DNA from: Hyphomicrobiales bacterium
Lineage (GTDB): Bacteria > Pseudomonadota > Alphaproteobacteria > Rhizobiales > JAJFHC01
Assembly: GCA_021775835.1 (NCBI GenBank)
Contig: JAJFHC010000051.1
Span: 1 to 27,017 of the forward strand
Reading direction: 5' to 3'
DNA length: 27,017 nt
Shown: positions 1-25,768 of the stretch, piece by piece
How positions within the stretch are numbered: position 1 is the stretch's first letter
How the letters are laid out: every line of letters begins with the position of its first letter
Position numbers and translations under genes: made by a program
The notes under the pieces: model-generated
The model's input: only the letters and a program-made list of their open reading frames with translations
What the model was told of the DNA's origin: nothing
Database searches by the model: none

Positions 1-370
1 TTCAAGGTTGAATTCGTAGAAAAGCTGTTCCTGACCTCGTGTCTGACGCCCCATCATCACACCGTCTCCAAAGCTGATGCACTAGGGAAATAGAATCACT
101 GTTCGCAAAAATGCTCAACCGACTTTTGCAACACAATCGGACACAAAACAGCCGTGTTCACAAGACGTTCGATGGTTCTGCTAAGTGCCGTCAACCGACA
201 CTTGGGTTGGCGCAAGAAATGGCGATATTCAGCGAATCGCGATGCCGGCGGAGGAGCCGTCCACAGCATCAGAGATGGAAGTGCCCCGGGCCTTTCAAGC
301 AGGACAACTAACCTCAATACTTGGAATTGAGCCCCCGGATGTAATTTCCGTTATCTCTGCCGGGCCTCGC
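1..370. other. Unassigned region left of the csp promoter
   Basis: I see no convincing gene in this stretch. The open frames here are short, overlap each other on both strands, lack good ribosome binding sites and resemble no family I recognise. Base composition is more mixed than in the metabolic genes further right. It may hold decayed mobile DNA or the tail of a gene outside the window, but nothing in the sequence decides this. Confidence 0.5.
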
Positions 371-376
371 AGATCA

Positions 377-404
377 TTGACTTTTCCGGGATTTTCTATA
401 TATG
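377..404 (+). promoter_or_regulatory. Candidate sigma-70 promoter for the cold-shock gene
   Basis: TTGACT (377-382) is followed by TATATG (399-404) at a 16-base spacing; TATGTA (401-406) at 18 is an alternative. The stretch is locally AT-rich. It would give a leader of roughly 140 nt before the csp start, in keeping with the long structured leaders of cspA-type genes. This is a consensus match only. Confidence 0.4.
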
Positions 405-503
405 TAAACCTTACGTGCTACATTCGTTTTGGTGCGACCTGGACAACCGGTACGCCGATTAGCTTAGTTATTCCCTGACAATGTGAACGTGAATATCAAC
501 CGC

Positions 504-520
504 CGTCGCATGATGCGACG
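504..520 (+). promoter_or_regulatory. Perfect hairpin in the csp leader
   Basis: The 8-base arms CGTCGCAT and ATGCGACG flank one central base, so a short stem-loop can form about 32 bases upstream of the csp start codon and before the Shine-Dalgarno (about 540-546). Leader hairpins of cspA-type mRNAs are known thermosensitive elements. A role here is inferred from position alone; a protein operator is an alternative. Confidence 0.4.
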
Positions 521-552
521 CGCGGCATCAACTCCTGTTAGAGGACATAACT

Positions 553-762
553 ATGACTACTGGTACCGTAAAATGGTTTAACCCGGCCAAGGGTTTCGGC
601 TTCATCGAACCTGAGGATGGCTCGAACGACGCTTTTGTCCACATTTCCGCTGTTGAGCGCGCCGGACTGAGCGTGCTGAATGAAGGACAAAAGGTTTCTT
701 ACGAACTTCAGCCCGGACAAAACGGCAAATCGTCCGCGGAGAGCCTGTCTATCGTCGAGTAG
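553..762 (+). CDS. CspA-family cold-shock protein
   Basis: This encodes a 69-residue single cold-shock domain, the usual family size. It is a small cytoplasmic beta-barrel that binds single-stranded RNA and DNA and acts as an RNA chaperone. The RNP1-like motif KGFGFIEP (about residues 14-21) and RNP2-like FVHIS (about 29-33) carry the aromatic nucleic-acid-binding residues, and the N-terminus TGTVKWFN is typical. The ATG start has an AGAGGAC Shine-Dalgarno at good spacing. A promoter candidate lies about 150 bases upstream and a hairpin terminator directly downstream, so the gene is probably monocistronic. Whether it is cold-induced or constitutive cannot be told from the protein. Family assignment is very secure. 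Confidence 0.96.
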
Positions 763-775
763 TCAGGTAGGGAAA

Positions 776-801
776 CCGCCTCCGACTGTTGTTGGAGGCG
801 G
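776..801 (+). terminator. Hairpin terminator after csp
   Basis: CCGCCTCC (776-783) pairs perfectly with GGAGGCGG (794-801) around a 10-base loop, starting 14 bases after the csp stop codon. There is no clear T tract, so intrinsic termination may be weak, but position and stem strength fit a transcript end. Confidence 0.55.
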
Positions 802-993
802 ACCGTTCCGCGCCTATCCCTTCGACTCCCTTCGACTTTCAATGAACGACGACCTGCGGAGTCCGGCTTTTCGTTCTATGCCACCGCTCATCGCGGCTTT
901 GCAAGCGGCCCGAAGATGCCGAGCACTGGCTTGAAGGATATCGCAAGTCTGGTTTGATCCAATGAACCAGAGATGAGCCCCATGTCCGATAAT

Positions 994-1070
994 GGGATGG
1001 ACCGGCTGCTCCACTGAGCCAGTAGGTTAGGCTTTGCGCCTTCAACCTGCAAACACAGGAGCAGCATCCC
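994..1070 (+). promoter_or_regulatory. Transposase leader stem that buries the ribosome binding site
   Basis: GGAGCAGCATCCC (1058-1070), which holds the Shine-Dalgarno and abuts the ATG, can pair over 13 bases with GGGATG (994-999) plus CTGCTCC (1006-1012), leaving GACCGG as a bulge. A second stem (1022-1028 with 1044-1050, one G-U pair) sits inside. The left terminal repeat is therefore part of the stem. Transcripts entering from outside the element would hide the start site; transcripts starting inside would not. The function is inferred by analogy with other insertion sequences. Confidence 0.6.
997..1010 (+). repeat. Left subterminal inverted repeat of the IS1111-type element
   Basis: ATGGACCGGCTGCT here is the exact reverse complement of 2359-2372. 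It lies a few bases inside the inferred left end, as IS1111-group repeats do. Confidence 0.9.
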
Positions 1071-2135
1071 ATGACCAGGTCATCCAATAAGTCTCCAACA
1101 GAACTTGCTGTTGTCGGCATTGATATCGGCAAAGATGTCTTCCATCTCGTCGGCTTTGATCCGAACGGCAAGATTGTTCTACGGCGCAAGATCAAGCGTA
1201 TGGCGCTTGTGGCAGCCTTCGAGAAGTTGCCGCGAGGTATCGTCGGCATGGAGGCGTGTCTCAGTGCTCACTTCGTCAGTCGCACGTTACGCATGCTGGG
1301 CTTCGAACCCCGTATCATTCCGGCAAAATACACCAAGCCCTTCGTAAAGGGGCAGAAGAACGATTACAACGATGCGGAGGGTATTGCTGAAGCCGCATTA
1401 CGCCCGAACCTGAAGTGCGTCAGCGAGAAGTCGCAGGATCAACTGGATCTGCAGGTGCTTCATCGCGTGAGATCACGGCTGGTCTCACGACGCACGGCAA
1501 CGATTAATCAGATCCGAGCCTTTCTTATTGAACAAAATATTACGGTCCGCACGGGAGCAAGTGCGCTGCGGAACTCGCTGTTTGTTATTCTGCAAAATCG
1601 TGAGGATGAGATCTCACCACGCATGAGCGATATCATCGTTGGGCTCTATGAAGACTGGCTCTGGCTTGATGAGCGGATCGAGGGGATCACGAACCAGATC
1701 GAAAAGATCAGCCGAACAGAAGACAATTGCGAACGTCTCATGAGCATCCCAGGCATCGGTCCCATGATCTCGACAGCTATGGTCGCAGCGATCGGTACAG
1801 GCGAAGCGTTTGATCGAGGCCGCGACTTCGGTGCCTGGTTGGGGCTCGTTCCACGGCAATACAGTACAGGCGGCAAACCGGTCCTCGGACGTATCTCCAA
1901 ACGAGGCAATCGATATCTGCGGACACTGTTCGTGCAAGCAGCCCATGTCATATTGATGCGACCAAAGAACTGGGAGAAGTTCAGCTTCGGTCCCTGGCTT
2001 GAGCAAGCGCAGGGGCGAATGCACAAGAACAAGCTTGCCGCGGCCCTCGCCAACAAACTAGCGCGCATTGCCTGGAGCGTTCTGAGCAACGGAAAGAAAT
2101 TCGACACACACAGAATTGAGGCGGTATCAATCTAA
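1071..2135 (+). CDS. IS110-family (IS1111 group) transposase, DEDD type
   Basis: This 354-residue protein appears intact and full length. The N-terminal RuvC-like DEDD domain shows GIDIGKD (first Asp, about residue 18), GMEAC (Glu, about 59-63) and DYNDAEG (two Asp, about 97-103). The C-terminal transposase_20 domain shows PGIGPMIS, the RGRDFGAWLGL stretch and STGGK followed by GRISKRGNRYLR, as in IS4321/IS5075-like IS1111 members. The C-terminal domain carries the family's conserved catalytic serine; I did not pin the residue. The enzyme is an RNA-guided recombinase that excises a circle and inserts it without target duplication. The start ATG has an AGGAG Shine-Dalgarno (1057-1061) lying in a possible stem. 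Codon use and composition look less GC-rich than the metabolic genes, as expected of mobile DNA. Confidence 0.95.
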   Translation: MTRSSNKSPTELAVVGIDIGKDVFHLVGFDPNGKIVLRRKIKRMALVAAFEKLPRGIVGMEACLSAHFVSRTLRMLGFEPRIIPAKYTKPFVKGQKNDYNDAEGIAEAALRPNLKCVSEKSQDQLDLQVLHRVRSRLVSRRTATINQIRAFLIEQNITVRTGASALRNSLFVILQNREDEISPRMSDIIVGLYEDWLWLDERIEGITNQIEKISRTEDNCERLMSIPGIGPMISTAMVAAIGTGEAFDRGRDFGAWLGLVPRQYSTGGKPVLGRISKRGNRYLRTLFVQAAHVILMRPKNWEKFSFGPWLEQAQGRMHKNKLAAALANKLARIAWSVLSNGKKFDTHRIEAVSI

Positions 2136-2197
2136 CAGACACCTTCTCGACGGAGTTCGCGACTGAGAACACTGCATGGAACGGATCAAGAAACGCC

Positions 2198-2320
2198 CTC
2201 AAAGTCTGATGACCCAACTGGCTGTAGAGCAGTCTGTCCGATAATGAGACCACTGGAGCGGGCGTATTCCCATCAAGGCCACGGCCCGCGTGCCGATCAA
2301 ACAGGCCGGATACATATGAG
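2198..2320 (+). ncRNA. Candidate seekRNA (bridge-RNA-like guide) of the IS1111-type element
   Basis: In the non-coding right part of the element, two internal-loop-like units can be read. Target unit: 2209-2217 is the reverse complement of the right flank (2376-2384), while 2235-2246 equals the left flank plus junction (983-994). The two strands face each other between a base stem GTCT/AGAC (2204-2207 with 2247-2250) and an apical hairpin (2218-2223 with 2228-2232, one bulged G). Donor unit: 2268-2273 is the reverse complement of the left element end (992-997) and 2310-2315 equals the right element end (2371-2376). Strand polarity is the same in both units, as known for seekRNA and bridge RNA. 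The donor matches are only 6 bases, and the RNA ends are a guess. Confidence 0.7.
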
Positions 2321-2358
2321 CGACTTCCAATATCCAAGCACAAAACTCACTTGCGTCC

Positions 2359-2372
2359 AGCAGCCGGTCCAT
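2359..2372 (-). repeat. Right subterminal inverted repeat of the IS1111-type element
   Basis: AGCAGCCGGTCCAT is the exact reverse complement of the left repeat at 997-1010. About three bases separate it from the inferred right junction, matching the asymmetric placement known for IS1111 elements. Confidence 0.9.
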
Positions 2373-2529
2373 ACATTGGGTCATTAGGAGACCAACAGGC
2401 ACGTCTTCCGCAGTGTCCGCTAATGATGCGTGAGCAGACGAACCGGTGAGGGAGCGAACATCGCCCCTCCATTGTCAGTTGTCGGTGTTACTGGACACGA
2501 ACTTGGCGCCCGAGCATTGGCCGGGATGC

Positions 2530-3462
2530 TCAGCCATAGTCTATCATCGTTGCATCGCGGCGCTCGCGGTGCCACTGCCAGTAAGTATCTTTCAGACGCA
2601 CCGAAATTGGCCCCGGTCGATCGTTCGAAAGGATGGTTCCGTCAATGCGCGCGGCCGGCATGATGCCGCCGGCTGTGGTCGACGTGAAGATCTCATCCGC
2701 TCCGCGCAATTCGTCCGCAGTGATAGGGCGGATTTGAAAGGGAATGCCCAACGCGTCGCAGAGATCAAAGACCGTCTGTCGTGTGATCCCCTCCAGGGCG
2801 CCGCGATCGGGTGAAGAAACTTTGCCGTCACTAACCAGGAAGACATTGAAACCAGGTCCTTCGGTCACAAACCCGTCCCGATCCAGCAAAACGGCGTTGT
2901 CGGCTCCCGCATCCTCGACCTCAAACAGGGCGCCTATCATGTCGCCCCAATGATAATTCTTGATGGTCGGGTCAACGCTCTCGGGCGGAATACGCTCGGT
3001 CTTGGCGATGATCAGGTGCGCGCCGCGCGACTGTACCTCGGGCGAGATCACATCAATCCACGGTATCGCATAAGCATAAAAGCGGTTGGTGAGAAGGCTG
3101 GGTGCCCGGGGCATCCCCGGCAGCGGCACCCCACGGGTTGTTAACATTGCCACATAGGCGCATCGCAACCCGCTGAGACGGACACACGTTGTCAGGATTT
3201 CGCCAAGCTCACTCCGGTCGTAGGGGATTTTCATCCTCAATCCGGCCATCGAACGCTCGAACCGGCTGAGGTGCTGGTCTAGCCGAAAGAACGCACCGTC
3301 CCAGACATGGACGACGTCATAGGTCACGTCAGACTTGTTGAATCCCCAGTCCATAACCGAGATCGACGCTTGGTCAGCCGGAACATATGCGCCCATGGCG
3401 AAGGCTGCGCCTTTGGAAAAATCATGGTCGGCAATCGTCTGTGGTGAGTTCAGTTGGTTCAT
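2530..3462 (-). CDS. PLP fold-type IV aminotransferase, (R)-selective amine transaminase-like
   Basis: This 310-residue class IV aminotransferase transfers an amino group using pyridoxal phosphate. Numbering from the TTG three bases further up (3465), the PLP lysine is K169 in VDPTIKNYHWGD, E202 lies in the cofactor motif TEGPGFNVF, and the phosphate loops LEGITRQTV and TTAGGIMP follow. The N-terminal stretch SDVTYDVVHVWDGAFFRLDQH and the motif around YVAMLTTRG (104-112) closely resemble the (R)-selective amine transaminase ATA-117 from Arthrobacter. The branched-chain and D-alanine aminotransferase signatures at the same place are different. The ATG at 3462 is preferred over TTG because of the AAGAAGG upstream. 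The natural substrate is unknown. It is divergent from the next gene across about 250 bases. Confidence 0.85.
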   Translation of the reverse strand: MNQLNSPQTIADHDFSKGAAFAMGAYVPADQASISVMDWGFNKSDVTYDVVHVWDGAFFRLDQHLSRFERSMAGLRMKIPYDRSELGEILTTCVRLSGLRCAYVAMLTTRGVPLPGMPRAPSLLTNRFYAYAIPWIDVISPEVQSRGAHLIIAKTERIPPESVDPTIKNYHWGDMIGALFEVEDAGADNAVLLDRDGFVTEGPGFNVFLVSDGKVSSPDRGALEGITRQTVFDLCDALGIPFQIRPITADELRGADEIFTSTTAGGIMPAARIDGTILSNDRPGPISVRLKDTYWQWHRERRDATMIDYG

Positions 3463-3710
3463 CAAATCGCCTTCTTCCGATCACTTTCAAAAAGCCTGTC
3501 GCGATACCTGCCGATCTCAATTTGTATTGTCATGAAAACAGGCCGGCAAAGCAAGAAACGCTTGCCTGCTTCTGGTTCAACTCGGACGCTGAATTTCGCC
3601 GCAACTGACCGCACTGAAGTCTCCAACCCGCTGAACGTCGCGCCCTTCCAGCCGCTCACGATCTCGGTTATCGTTCCAGCTCACTGACACAAATTGGTCG
3701 GGAGGTGAAC

Positions 3711-4607
3711 GTGAGCAGATACGACAGGTTGATGAGCCGGATAGCAGACGGCCAGCGCATTCTGATCGATGGCGCCACGGGCACGGAGATCGAAAGGCGC
3801 GGTGTGCCGCAACTGGAGAATGCGTGGAACGGCGGTGGTGCGCTAAGCCATCCGGATGTCCTTCGAACCGTGCACGAGGACTACATCCGCGAAGGTGCGG
3901 AGATCGTCATCGCGAACACTTTCGCCACCCACCGCCAGGCCTTGCGTGAGGCAGGCGTCGAAGATCGGTTCGAGAGCCTCAATCGACGCGGTGTTGAACT
4001 GGCGGCCAAGGCCCGTGACCGCATGGAGACCCCTGACGTCCTTGTGGCGGGTGGAATATCGTACTGGTCCTGGGCAGGAGACTGGATCTCGGCCGCAGAG
4101 TTGTCAACCGATGCGGAAGAACAGGCAGCGATCATGGCCGACGCCGGCGCCGACCTGCTCATGCTCGAGATGATGATTGATATCGAACGCACGCTGGTGA
4201 CCCTTGAGGCCGCACAAAAGAGCGGGTTGCCCGTGTGGGTCGGTTTTTCCTGCAAGGCCAGTGAGGGTGGTGAGCCCGGTGCCATGAACTTGCGTGACGG
4301 TGAACCCCTCGCCGACGCCTTGGATGCTCTTGCAGACAGAAACGTGCCGCTGGTCAATATCATGCACACGGTGATTGAGGACATCGGCCTCTGCCTCGAT
4401 GTTGTTGAAGATCACTGGTCGGGCCCGGTCGGCGTCTATGCCCACTCAGCCCGTTGGGTGAACCACGTTTGCTACTTTGACGTGTCGGTATCGCCTGAGG
4501 ACTATGCGTCGCAATCGCAAGCCTGGCTTAGCCGCGGCGTCCAGGTCATAGGCGGCTGCTGCGGATTGGGGGTCGACCACATCAACGCCTTGAAGCCGCT
4601 CGTGTGA
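3711..4607 (+). CDS. Homocysteine S-methyltransferase family protein with altered zinc site
   Basis: This protein of about 298 residues has a TIM-barrel homocysteine-binding domain, as in MetH, MmuM and BHMT, which move a methyl group to a zinc-bound thiol. Numbering from a GTG six bases further up (3705), the start motif DGATGTE (22-28), the Asn-Thr-Phe motif (71-73) and the C-terminal zinc pair GGCCG (C285, C286) are present. The third zinc Cys, normally in an Asn-Cys motif (BHMT NCH), is replaced: here the motif reads VNIMHT (N218, I219, H221). Zinc binding is therefore changed, perhaps with H221 as ligand, and the thiol substrate may differ. GTG 3711 is preferred because GGAGG (3701-3705) is correctly spaced from it and overlaps the earlier GTG. 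No B12 or folate domain is attached. Confidence 0.85.
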   Translation: MSRYDRLMSRIADGQRILIDGATGTEIERRGVPQLENAWNGGGALSHPDVLRTVHEDYIREGAEIVIANTFATHRQALREAGVEDRFESLNRRGVELAAKARDRMETPDVLVAGGISYWSWAGDWISAAELSTDAEEQAAIMADAGADLLMLEMMIDIERTLVTLEAAQKSGLPVWVGFSCKASEGGEPGAMNLRDGEPLADALDALADRNVPLVNIMHTVIEDIGLCLDVVEDHWSGPVGVYAHSARWVNHVCYFDVSVSPEDYASQSQAWLSRGVQVIGGCCGLGVDHINALKPLV

Positions 4608-4615
4608 AACATATG

Positions 4616-4633
4616 CGCCGCGCGACAGCGGCG
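4616..4633. terminator. Short hairpin between convergent genes
   Basis: CGCCGC (4616-4621) pairs with GCGGCG (4628-4633) over a 6-base loop, between the convergent ends of the methyltransferase-like gene (4607) and the small secreted-protein gene (4661). There is no T tract. It could act as a weak bidirectional terminator. Confidence 0.3.
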
Positions 4634-4660
4634 GTGGGTCAATAGTCGTCACCGTTGGTG

Positions 4661-5002
4661 TTACCGGCCAAACACGTTGGCGGCGACTTCGCGGACGGCA
4701 TCAATAAAGAGGTCGTCTTCGTTGCCGTCACATTGCGGTACCAGGTCATCGTATAGGGATTTGGCATCGCTGAACGGTTCCGGAGACTCCCCATCCAGCC
4801 CGGCGCCCTGATCGCTTCGCCCGGTCACATACCCCATCGCCCATTCAAGGAATTTCGTGGTGGCGGTCTGGTCCCCCCTCGCCACAGCATCATTGAAAGC
4901 CTTGCATGTGGTTGTCCCAACCCCGAGTGGCATTTGTCCGGTCTGTGCCTCCAGTGCCGTGGGCAACAGGAGAACCGTTGCAACAAAAAACCATTTTGCC
5001 AT
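4661..5002 (-). CDS. Small secreted protein of unknown function with two cysteines
   Basis: This 113-residue protein has an N-terminal signal peptide (K3, hydrophobic core about 4-16, likely cleavage near residue 19) and so should be periplasmic. The mature part has two cysteines (C33 and C91) that could form one disulfide, and an acidic C-terminal half. The layout (early Cys, then FLEWAMGYVTG, then a late Cys) recalls small periplasmic alpha-helical proteins such as the HdeA or Rap1a/Tai types, but I cannot assign a family. The ATG start has a strong GGAGGGA site. It is divergent from the glycosyltransferase gene and convergent with the methyltransferase-like gene, so it is probably transcribed alone. 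Confidence 0.75.
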   Translation of the reverse strand: MAKWFFVATVLLLPTALEAQTGQMPLGVGTTTCKAFNDAVARGDQTATTKFLEWAMGYVTGRSDQGAGLDGESPEPFSDAKSLYDDLVPQCDGNEDDLFIDAVREVAANVFGR

Positions 5003-23455: not shown

Positions 23456-25768
23456 TCAGAACAGCTGCATTTGTGCCCCGGTGAGTTCACTGAAGCTTGT
23501 ATCGAGAAACTGCAGGATGCCGTCGGCCACGGGGGCAAGCTGCTTGTCGAGATAGTGCTGGTGATCAGGAGCAGACTTCAGGGCATCGACCGGTTCCGGC
23601 CCGTTACGGGTAATGACATAACTGATCCAGCGTCCCTCGCGCCCGAGCTTTCGGGCGGCCTGTACGTGCGGAGGCACGTTGCGCTTGTACTCATCCAGCC
23701 GGCGGCGCAACCGTTTTCGGTAGACCAGGGATTCATCAAGGTCACCACGCCGCAATGCCTCCGCGGTATCGCGAACGAAGCTCTCGAAGGGCAGGTCGAG
23801 GAACACGCGCCGCAACAGCTCTCTCTGAAACTCGCGGGCCAAAGGCGTCCAGTCGGTCCGCGCCGCCTCCAGACCTTTCACGATCAATTGCGGTTTGCCA
23901 TCCGATCCGGTGACCATTCCGGCATAGCGCTTCTTGCTGCCCGTTTGCATGCCGCGCACGGTCGGCATCAGGAAACGCGTGTAGTGAAGTTCAAACTCCA
24001 CTTCGAGGTGACATTCGATGCCGTAGGTATCGGCCAGGGTTTGTTTCCACCATGTGTTCAAGTCATTCATCAGCCCGTACCCGATGCGTTGAGCGCTTTG
24101 ATTGTCGTGTGATGGGCCGAGCAATACAAACAGCGAATCTGTATCGCCATAGATGACCTGGTGGCCGAGCGCTTCGATCTTGTCGCGGGACTGCATGATG
24201 ATTTCATGGCCCCGCCGGGTGATGCTGGACGCCAGTTGGGGCGAGTGGAAACGGCAGCCACTGGAACCCAGGACGCCATAGAACGAATTCATGATGATTT
24301 TGATTGCTTGCGAAAGCGGCGCGTTCTCGTCGCGTTTGGCTGCATCGCGGGCCTGCCAGAGTTCTTCGATCAGACCGGGTAGGATGTGCCGGTCTCGTGA
24401 GAATGTGGCATCGAGGAATCCCGGTACGGGGTTGTCTCCCGGTTCCGCCAGGCCAAGCGGATCGATGAAAAACGTTCGAATGATGCTCGGATACAGACTC
24501 TTGAAATCGAGCACCAGGACGTTTTCATACAGGCCCGGCATGGAGTCGAGGACATAGCCGCCGGGACTGCCAAGCCCGCCGCTGTCTTTGTGCACATCTG
24601 GGGCCACAAAACCCTGCCGGTGAAGGCGCGGCAGATACAGGTTATCGAGGGCGGCCACCGAACCGCCCAGGCGATCGACGGCAAGGCCCGTCAGGTTGGC
24701 ACGCTGTACAGCAAACGCGATGAGGTCTGCCTTGATGAAGATCTCGTTGACCAGCGTGCAATCGCGCATGTTGTAGTCAGCCAGCATGGGCTTGTCGTCG
24801 CGAAACTGGCGGTTGATTTCCGCCACTTTGTCTTGCTTCGATGTGATCAACTTGCCTTGCCCGAGCAGTTGATGAGCAACATTGTCCAGGGAGAAACTTT
24901 CAAACGCCCAGAAACCGGCTTTGAGCAGATCTATGCCGTCGAGAACACCACGGCCGGGGAGCCGGGCCACGCGCGGTTGGCCGGGGTTGCCGGGTTGTAG
25001 AATTGCAGCCGGTTCCCGCCCGCGTCCCATGGCGAAGGGAATTCCCAATGAACGGCATTTGCGATCCAGAAAGTTGAGATCGAAATTCACCACGCTCCAA
25101 CCGATGATCAGGTCGGGGTCGACGATCTCAAGCCAGTTGAAAAAGGCAGTCAGCAGGTCACGTTCATTCTGGCAGTAATGCAGGGTGTAACCGTCGCGCA
25201 ATTCGTCCTCTGCGGCACCGATCATGAAGACACAACAGTCCGCCCCCGGATCACCCGGGTGCATGGTCGCGCCAGCGACCGAATACAGCTGGTCGGAACT
25301 GCCGCGGGTTTCGATATCCAGTGACAGTGCCGTCAGGTCAGGCTGGACATCGGCTTTGCGCAGGCGGGGATTGAACAAGGTGCGCACGCCATCCTTATCC
25401 ACAACGTCGCCAGTGGCTTCGAATCCGGCACTCACAAAACGTTCCATGAGATACCGGTCGGCCGGCCTGACATCCGACTCCGCCAGCGTGACGCCAGAGT
25501 CTCTCAGCGCTTTCATGTCCCGCTGTTGTCGGAAGTAGAGCGCATCCACGGCGTCGCCGCCGAGCAGCTTGAGTTCGCGGGGCTCGCGGCGGGTGTTGGT
25601 CGACAGGGACAGCGGCTGGGAGCGGTTGACGAAACACACGGACTCCTGTTCTTCAATCACCAGGCGGACAGGCCCCGTGTCGGACGCGCCCCAGAACGTG
25701 AGTTCAACGCCGCGCGGTGTATCGCGCCACCCACGTGTCAGCAAATAGCCTGTGATGGAATCACTCAT
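23456..25768 (-). CDS. polB: DNA polymerase II (family B)
   Basis: This 770-residue family B polymerase is about the size of E. coli Pol II (783). The 3'-5' exonuclease motifs are intact: Exo I DIE (151-153), Exo II NFDLNFLDR (228-236), Exo III YNMRD (332-336). Polymerase motifs are intact too: A DFKSLYPSI (421-429), B K490 to NSFYG (494-498), C YGDTDS (540-545). It is a proofreading polymerase for replication restart and damage bypass, often under LexA control in other bacteria; I see no clear SOS box here. The start ATG has a strong GGAGG. The gene is convergent with the SET-domain gene (96-base gap) and divergent from the AEC transporter gene. Confidence 0.96.
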   Translation of the reverse strand: MSDSITGYLLTRGWRDTPRGVELTFWGASDTGPVRLVIEEQESVCFVNRSQPLSLSTNTRREPRELKLLGGDAVDALYFRQQRDMKALRDSGVTLAESDVRPADRYLMERFVSAGFEATGDVVDKDGVRTLFNPRLRKADVQPDLTALSLDIETRGSSDQLYSVAGATMHPGDPGADCCVFMIGAAEDELRDGYTLHYCQNERDLLTAFFNWLEIVDPDLIIGWSVVNFDLNFLDRKCRSLGIPFAMGRGREPAAILQPGNPGQPRVARLPGRGVLDGIDLLKAGFWAFESFSLDNVAHQLLGQGKLITSKQDKVAEINRQFRDDKPMLADYNMRDCTLVNEIFIKADLIAFAVQRANLTGLAVDRLGGSVAALDNLYLPRLHRQGFVAPDVHKDSGGLGSPGGYVLDSMPGLYENVLVLDFKSLYPSIIRTFFIDPLGLAEPGDNPVPGFLDATFSRDRHILPGLIEELWQARDAAKRDENAPLSQAIKIIMNSFYGVLGSSGCRFHSPQLASSITRRGHEIIMQSRDKIEALGHQVIYGDTDSLFVLLGPSHDNQSAQRIGYGLMNDLNTWWKQTLADTYGIECHLEVEFELHYTRFLMPTVRGMQTGSKKRYAGMVTGSDGKPQLIVKGLEAARTDWTPLAREFQRELLRRVFLDLPFESFVRDTAEALRRGDLDESLVYRKRLRRRLDEYKRNVPPHVQAARKLGREGRWISYVITRNGPEPVDALKSAPDHQHYLDKQLAPVADGILQFLDTSFSELTGAQMQLF

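Follow-up and report, generated by a model that had tools for sequence, protein, structure and literature searches.

A predicted guide RNA in an IS1111-type element whose target and donor guides change together with flanks and element ends among relatives

How an IS110-family transposase and the non-coding stretch downstream of its gene could select an insertion site is the question raised by a locus in a 27,017-nucleotide stretch of DNA from a Hyphomicrobiales bacterium (contig JAJFHC010000051.1, positions 1 to 27,017, the whole of which is called the window here; features of the element are on its plus strand). The transposase gene (1071..2135) encodes a protein of 354 aa, which in a profile search matches the RNA-guided DEDD transposase family NF033542 with 317.5 bits and also PF01548 and PF02371, the make-up of a DEDD (RuvC-like) plus a Transposase_20 part. 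The motif GL-P----S(T)G, described as the C-terminal signature of the IS1111 group (PMC11187229), is present in the translated transposase as GLVPRQYSTG. The gene lies between subterminal inverted repeats that match perfectly over 14/14 bp, ATGGACCGGCTGCT on the left (997..1010) and AGCAGCCGGTCCAT on the right (2359..2372); in the IS1111 group such repeats are reported to be usually 11–13 bp long and perfect or near-perfect, with extensions of 7 bp on the left and 3 bp on the right outside them (PMC11187229). The location of the repeats and this published end rule place the whole element at 990..2375, from the left end extension TAATGGG (990..996, the left donor) to the right end extension ACA (2373..2375, the right donor), and at the level of sequence the rule brings the target motif and the donor guides into register across the clade. 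The element is bordered by a left target half, TGTCCGA (983..989), and a right target half, TTGGGTCAT (2376..2384), both of which match the RNA and covary with it among relatives, and its downstream non-coding region of 240 bp (2136..2375) holds the predicted guide RNA.

The empty site of the window element is expected from its flanks to read TGTCCGATTGGGTCAT; a right-flank query in one genome (G001) gave no such empty site. Upstream of the element, 553-762 encode a cold-shock protein, and downstream of it, after 154 bp, comes a class IV aminotransferase gene on the opposite strand (2530-3465). Further along the window, a gene for a small SET-domain protein (PF00856; 22751-23359) is found on this bacterial contig, and a family B DNA polymerase gene of the DNA polymerase II type is at 23456-25768. 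A comparison of plasmid records with window positions 1-5000 gave 578 records with a match, and among the ten matches listed only the transposase region was involved and none spanned 80% of the query. No family reached its gathering score in an Rfam scan of the window. The preliminary description had spoken of the same polarity in two units, and this part fell away, as a tblastn search of the window with the transposase returned this copy and four other hits with E > 1, leaving no second IS1111 unit.

The core of the predicted seekRNA/bridge RNA, conserved and covarying over 58 sequences, has approximate bounds of 2196..2325 and contains four stretches that match the flanks and ends of the element. 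The right-target guide ATGACCCAA (2209..2217) is exactly antisense to the right flank (2376-2384), the left-target guide (2235..2241) is exactly the sense sequence of the left flank (983-989), the left-donor guide TCCCAT (2268..2273) is exactly antisense to the left end (992-997), and the right-donor guide ATACAT (2310..2315) exactly equals the right end (2371-2376). Every one of the four matches claimed from the sequence alone was thus exact, and the order of the target guides is that of the IS1111 type, with the top-strand complement first, followed by the bottom-strand match. The left match had been given as 12 bases of left flank and junction, and the identity of 2235-2246 (TGTCCGATAATG) with 983-994 over 12 letters does hold; since the element occupies 990-2375 by the end rule, seven of these letters are target (983-989) and the other five (TAATG, 990-994) already belong to the left end of the element, which leaves seven as a target match. 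Among 4,000 positions drawn at random from the window, the element region excluded, a left-junction match of at least 12 was found 0 times and a right match of at least 9 was found 28 times, in line with the earlier estimate that the flank matches are rare by chance, and the abutting 7-mer was present somewhere in the non-coding region at 70 of 4,000 such positions. With these counts, the evidence from the single copy is good but short of overwhelming, and we regard the sequence comparison with relatives as what decides. A further site, TGTCCGCTAATG at 2414-2425, stands 38 bp beyond the right end of the element and is one mismatch from the guide at 2235-2246; it is one of three sites in the window within one mismatch of this guide (the guide itself, the left junction and 2414-2425), where shuffles expect 0.1. 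In many relatives the same letters make up the left target half and the left end together; here no element comes after them, and the site is possibly a trace left by an earlier insertion or a nearby sequence that resembles a target.

Among genome contigs, 190 stretches encoding relatives were detected and the 80 best retained; in 71 of these 80 the two ends were located, and nine loci with an end missing or not found were dropped (L008, L009, L015, L031, L032, L035, L044, L045, and L048), so that the comparisons use 71 relatives and the window (n = 72). The transposases of the relatives are 69–95% identical to that of the window, and their hosts belong, by record title, mostly to Alphaproteobacteria, the MAG carrying L018 being titled Gammaproteobacteria. 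The aligned non-coding regions consist of a constant scaffold and two variable stretches. The right guide agrees with its own right flank at a mean of 7.58/9 positions against 5.83 (SD 0.12) for permuted flanks, and the left guide agrees with its own left flank at 4.58/6 against 3.07 (69 of the 72 loci; L013, L027, and L036 being too short), levels that 0 of 10,000 flank permutations reached on either side when relatedness is ignored. The expectation of the preliminary description that flanks change together with the guides is therefore borne out on both sides, with the exceptions described below. Own right flanks score at least 8/9 in 57% of cases, and random positions in the same loci do so in 0.15%. 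Guide classes are shared, and in just 29/72 copies does no other flank match the guide better than the copy's own.

Three main classes are seen, in which guide GATGACCCAAA pairs with flank TTTGGGTCA, guide GACGGCCCAAA with flank TTTGGGCCG, and guide GAGAGCCCAAA with flank TTTGGGCTC. Retargeted copies include L005 (guide GAGGCGGCAAA, flank TTTGCCGCC) and L018 (guide GAGCAGAGAAA, flank TTTCTCTGC), both scoring 9/9, as well as L070 (ATTGTCCCA; 9/9), in which a rare-class guide GATGGGACAAT is found with flank ATTGTCCCATC, and L078 (AATGTCCCA; 7/9), and the rare-class guide GACAGCCCGAA of L059 and L072 matches the flank TTGGGCTGG at 7/9. The nearest relative of the window element, L001 (95% protein identity), has the left guide GTTCCGA and the left flank CTTCCGA where the window has TGTCCGA for both, and guide and flank agree at 6/6 of the last six letters in each of the two; on the right side L001 scores just 6/9. 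Relatives have landed elsewhere with matching different guides, in agreement with the mechanism of RNA-guided insertion described in 2024.

In all, ten right-guide classes were distinguished; the best transposase tree (63 distinct rows) needs 15 changes between them, and the class word is present in the own flank in 59/63 rows. Of the rows with a TGAC guide, 10/10 have a GTCA flank, and GTCA is present in 0/53 other rows; the class word of the CGGC guide is found in 24/26 own flanks and in 1/37 other rows, and that of the GAGC guide in 13/14 own flanks and in 0/49 other rows. In a tree-based independent-pairs test, the agreement was 1.9–2.0 of 2 on average, but each class had just two supported pairs, a number too small for significance; when only supported branches are counted, 1–3 changes per class are forced, well below the 15 of the best tree. 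These data bear on the alternative that the site is read by protein–DNA contacts of the transposase and that the RNA serves something else, such as stability or regulation. The GGG kept in the right half of most relatives is in keeping with such contacts, but transposases that are 69–95% identical to that of the window carry ten guide classes whose reverse complement is in the own flank in 59/63 rows, and ISEc11 was reported to be reprogrammed by changes in RNA and flank (PMC11187229), which together leave protein-only recognition very improbable.

Not every copy conforms. The right-side fit is poor in L041, L066, and L067, the left flank matches at 3/6 or fewer letters in L041, L042, L055, L067, L068, and L073, and the class word is absent from the own flank in L022, L039, L065, and L069. 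The RNA of L013 is without the stretch that holds the left-target guide and TAATG, yet its target site is fair, and L013 is probably a copy that decayed after insertion. In L041 (Roseovarius), the right end meets, to the right of position 4276, a second inverted right end, TTATGTATGTACCGGCTGCC, tail to tail. Between the right end and a TTGGGCTC target, there are two extra TACA units in L066 and one in L067, as slippage or repeated use of the right end might leave. Some of the misfitting copies look like decayed, nested, or mis-inserted ones.

The fold of the RNA was derived from an alignment of 58 of the 72 sequences, from which near copies, L001 (a longer hairpin), and L013 (a deletion) were left out. 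With no structure supplied, RNAalifold returned an internal loop that has the two target guides as its sides, closed by a stem of 2204-2206 with 2248-2250, taken here to span 2204..2207 with 2247-2250, where GC/AU and UA/CG exchanges occur, and topped by an apical stem of 2220..2223 with 2231-2234, where GC/AU, UA/CG, and CG/UA exchanges occur; this covarying fold agrees with the arrangement first proposed, with the target strands opposed, a closing stem on one side of them and an apical hairpin on the other. A second hairpin (2277..2307; 2277-2280 with 2304-2307 and 2282-2285 with 2292-2295) stands between the donor guides. Seven of the 16 counted pairs changed on both sides, and 99.2% of cells are paired, against 15–47% in controls slid by 1–3 columns. 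Four of five shuffle measures, the covariation score among them, were reached by 0/500 shuffles; the fifth, further pair types, was not above the shuffles (13 vs 14.1). The single-sequence stability of the window RNA is unremarkable (z = 0.28 for 2190-2330 and z = −0.68 for 2200-2256).

The ends of the clade vary too little for a good test of the donor guides, and 24 plasmid loci with transposase identities of 36–74% were therefore added; ends were not found in two of them (L087 and L088), which left 22 and a total of 94 elements. In the alignment, 90/94 elements have a right-end guide identical to their 3-bp extension, with the guide/end pairs ACA/ACA in 78, AGA/AGA in 7, ACG/ACG in 4, and CTA/CTA in 1, and mismatches in L004, L018, L064, and L071. 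The left-end guide agrees with left-end letters +5 to +7 in 80/94; all five letters from +3 to +7 agree in 44/94, and 28 others differ at +3 only. With one row for each of 18 families, 54/54 letters agree on the right, where the permuted mean is 37.9 (0/20,000), and 46/54 on the left, where it is 36.4 (2/20,000), figures that are not strict probabilities, as the families were hand-chosen and are related by descent. Joint changes of left donor and guide include ATGAG/CTCAT, ATGGA/TCCAT, ATGTA/TACAT, and ATGGT/ACCAT. The left-end guide is less strict than the right-end guide, and the donor matches, though short in the single copy, gain weight in that they covary with the ends. An extraction of donor guides by regular expression mis-parsed several elements (518/20,000 and 1,388/20,000 for the left donor) and was given up in favor of the alignment. 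In the diverged families, the right flank matches its best place anywhere in the non-coding region at 8–9/9 in 15/22 elements and at just 6–7/9 in the other seven (L092, L097, L098, L102, L104, L105, and L106).

Joining of the two ends in a circle would create a promoter-like sequence. A −35-like TTGCGT (2351..2356) would be followed, after a 17-bp spacer, by a −10 CATAAT arising where 2374-2375 joins 990-993. The junction −10 is at most one mismatch from TATAAT in 71/72 elements, compared with 1/72 at the same position when inserted; the junction −35 has two mismatches in 66/72 and three in 6/72, with the spacer fixed at 17. Promoters at the circle junction have been reported for other IS1111 members (PMC11187229).

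Taken with published experiments on other members, the following course can be proposed for the window element. The transposase would cut the element out as a circle, the joined ends would form a promoter that reads the transposase gene and, downstream of it, the non-coding RNA, and the transposase would bind that RNA. Base pairing would tie the 5′ guide (2209-2217) to the right target half, on its top strand, and the 3′ guide (2235-2241) to the left target half, on its bottom strand; 2268-2273 and 2310-2315 would pair likewise with the left and right ends of the element, whereupon the complex would recombine the circle with the target at TGTCCGA/TTGGGTCAT. Observed here are the exact matches, the covarying fold, guides that change along with flanks, donor guides that change along with ends, and the promoter-like junction; RNA production, binding, circle formation, and insertion are carried over by analogy with the other members. 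On this sequence comparison, we put the probability that the element moves by the published IS1111 seekRNA/bridge RNA mechanism at about 0.95; the relatives, the donor covariation, and the fold all support the guide-RNA reading with which the analysis began.

A different origin of the matches would be that the non-coding region took up a copy of part of the site of insertion, a captured target with no guiding function. The exact matches in this copy are what a fresh capture would leave, but many relatives match imperfectly at the same two loop positions, in opposite orientations and within a compensatory fold. Four copies on one contig (L038, L040, L046, and L047) have one guide in common although they sit at separate places; GGGCTC is on the right of every one and GGTAGG on the left of three, and some host genomes have unoccupied copies of the GGGTCA motif, so that capture carries only a slight probability. 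The reading of the matches as chance, for which the 28 of 4,000 right matches can be cited when this copy is taken alone, is more improbable still given the 0 of 4,000 for the left junction and the joint change of guides and flanks in relatives.

Among eight host genomes examined, the target motif GTCCGCTNTGGGTCA was found unoccupied 12 times in that of L080, five times in that of L004, and once in that of L014, with 0 in the other five; its reversed control occurred once, in the L003 genome, and the GGGTCA motif was present in only 3/8. In 7 genomes with a TGAC-guide element, GTCCGSTNTGGGTCA occurs 23 times and GTCCGSTNTGGGCCG five times, and in 12 genomes with a CGGC-guide element they occur two and eight times. 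Guide class goes with host motif class over these 19 genomes (Fisher p 0.0009, with 14 of the 23 GTCCGSTNTGGGTCA copies in G008). Backward controls in the 19 genomes gave 2 occurrences for the GGGTCA pattern and 4 for the GGGCCG pattern, and the 13 copies of the GGGCCG motif therefore hardly exceed background. These counts speak against a strong reading of the target as a REP-like repeat, which holds in a few hosts only.

The five letters TAATG at 2242..2246 carry the left guide on into the left end of the element. TAATG is present in both RNA and left end in 62/72 elements, and the left end begins with it in 70/72. A family test was compiled by eye from 17 families with one row each, L098 entering with a 6-bp left extension and L102, in which the left guide was not located, being left out. 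Permutation over the 17 families gave a total p of 0.08 for agreement with the left end and 0.009 for agreement with the right target half, the nominally significant positions being +2 of the left end (p 0.04) and +2 and +5 of the right target (p 0.01 and 0.02). The sequence evidence on the role of TAATG thus appears split between the left end and the right target half. The identity may be clade-wide because each of the two is conserved for a separate reason, the left end in forming the −10. In IS621, handshake guides of 2 nt are described as pairing with the exchanged strand (PMC11208158), and it is conceivable, though we consider it rather unlikely, that the 3′ target guide of this clade runs on for 5 nt and reads target-left and then donor-left as in the recombined product, as an extended handshake guide of the IS621 type. 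If this were true, the extended handshake would keep the left junction stable once strands are exchanged, and recognition by the element of its own integrated copy for excision could be accounted for in this way.

The mechanism as such is already published, as seekRNA for IS1111 (PMC11187229) and as bridge RNA for IS110, and the window element is no new kind of system. As in the published accounts of ISEc11, ISKpn4, ISPst6, and ISPa11, the transposase is of the DEDD type (330–350 aa there and 354 here), and the IS1111 seekRNA elements described there likewise have subterminal repeats, 7-bp and 3-bp extensions, a downstream non-coding region, the top-strand complement 5′ of the bottom-strand match, and a joined-end promoter (PMC11187229). 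Unlike those elements, the window element has the target TGTCCGA/TTGGGTCAT and a left guide that extends 5 nt into the left end, the present comparison being sequence-based. IS621 and the IS110 group are likewise described as having one RNA with target- and donor-binding stretches (PMC11208160; PMC11208158), but in most IS110-group members, as characterized there, the RNA is encoded at the left end and the order of the target strands is reversed, and IS621 has a simple internal donor loop, whereas the donor guides of the window element flank a second hairpin. IS4321/IS5075 and ISKpn2 (L109, L096, and L106), with transposase identities of 36–40%, share RNA layout and donor-guide rule with the window element in the alignment but have other targets, that of IS5075/IS4321 being reported as the Tn21-type terminal repeat (PMC11187229). 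Bridge RNAs have been predicted in 93.0% of IS1111 elements, and base pairing was inspected by hand in six diverse IS110/IS1111 elements (PMC11208160); ISEc11/ISXne4 is a published case of natural redirection (PMC11187229). As far as titles and the beginnings of abstracts among the papers listed indicate, this clade with ten right-guide classes is new, and so are the counts of donor-guide covariation between IS1111 families.

For an entire clade of IS1111 elements, mostly of Alphaproteobacteria, raw sequence is thus enough to read off guide RNA, target, and donor. This gives a comparative map of the target-guide, donor-guide, and scaffold bases in IS1111 RNAs, of the kind that reprogramming of such recombinases requires, and the role of the five bases after the left guide becomes directly testable.
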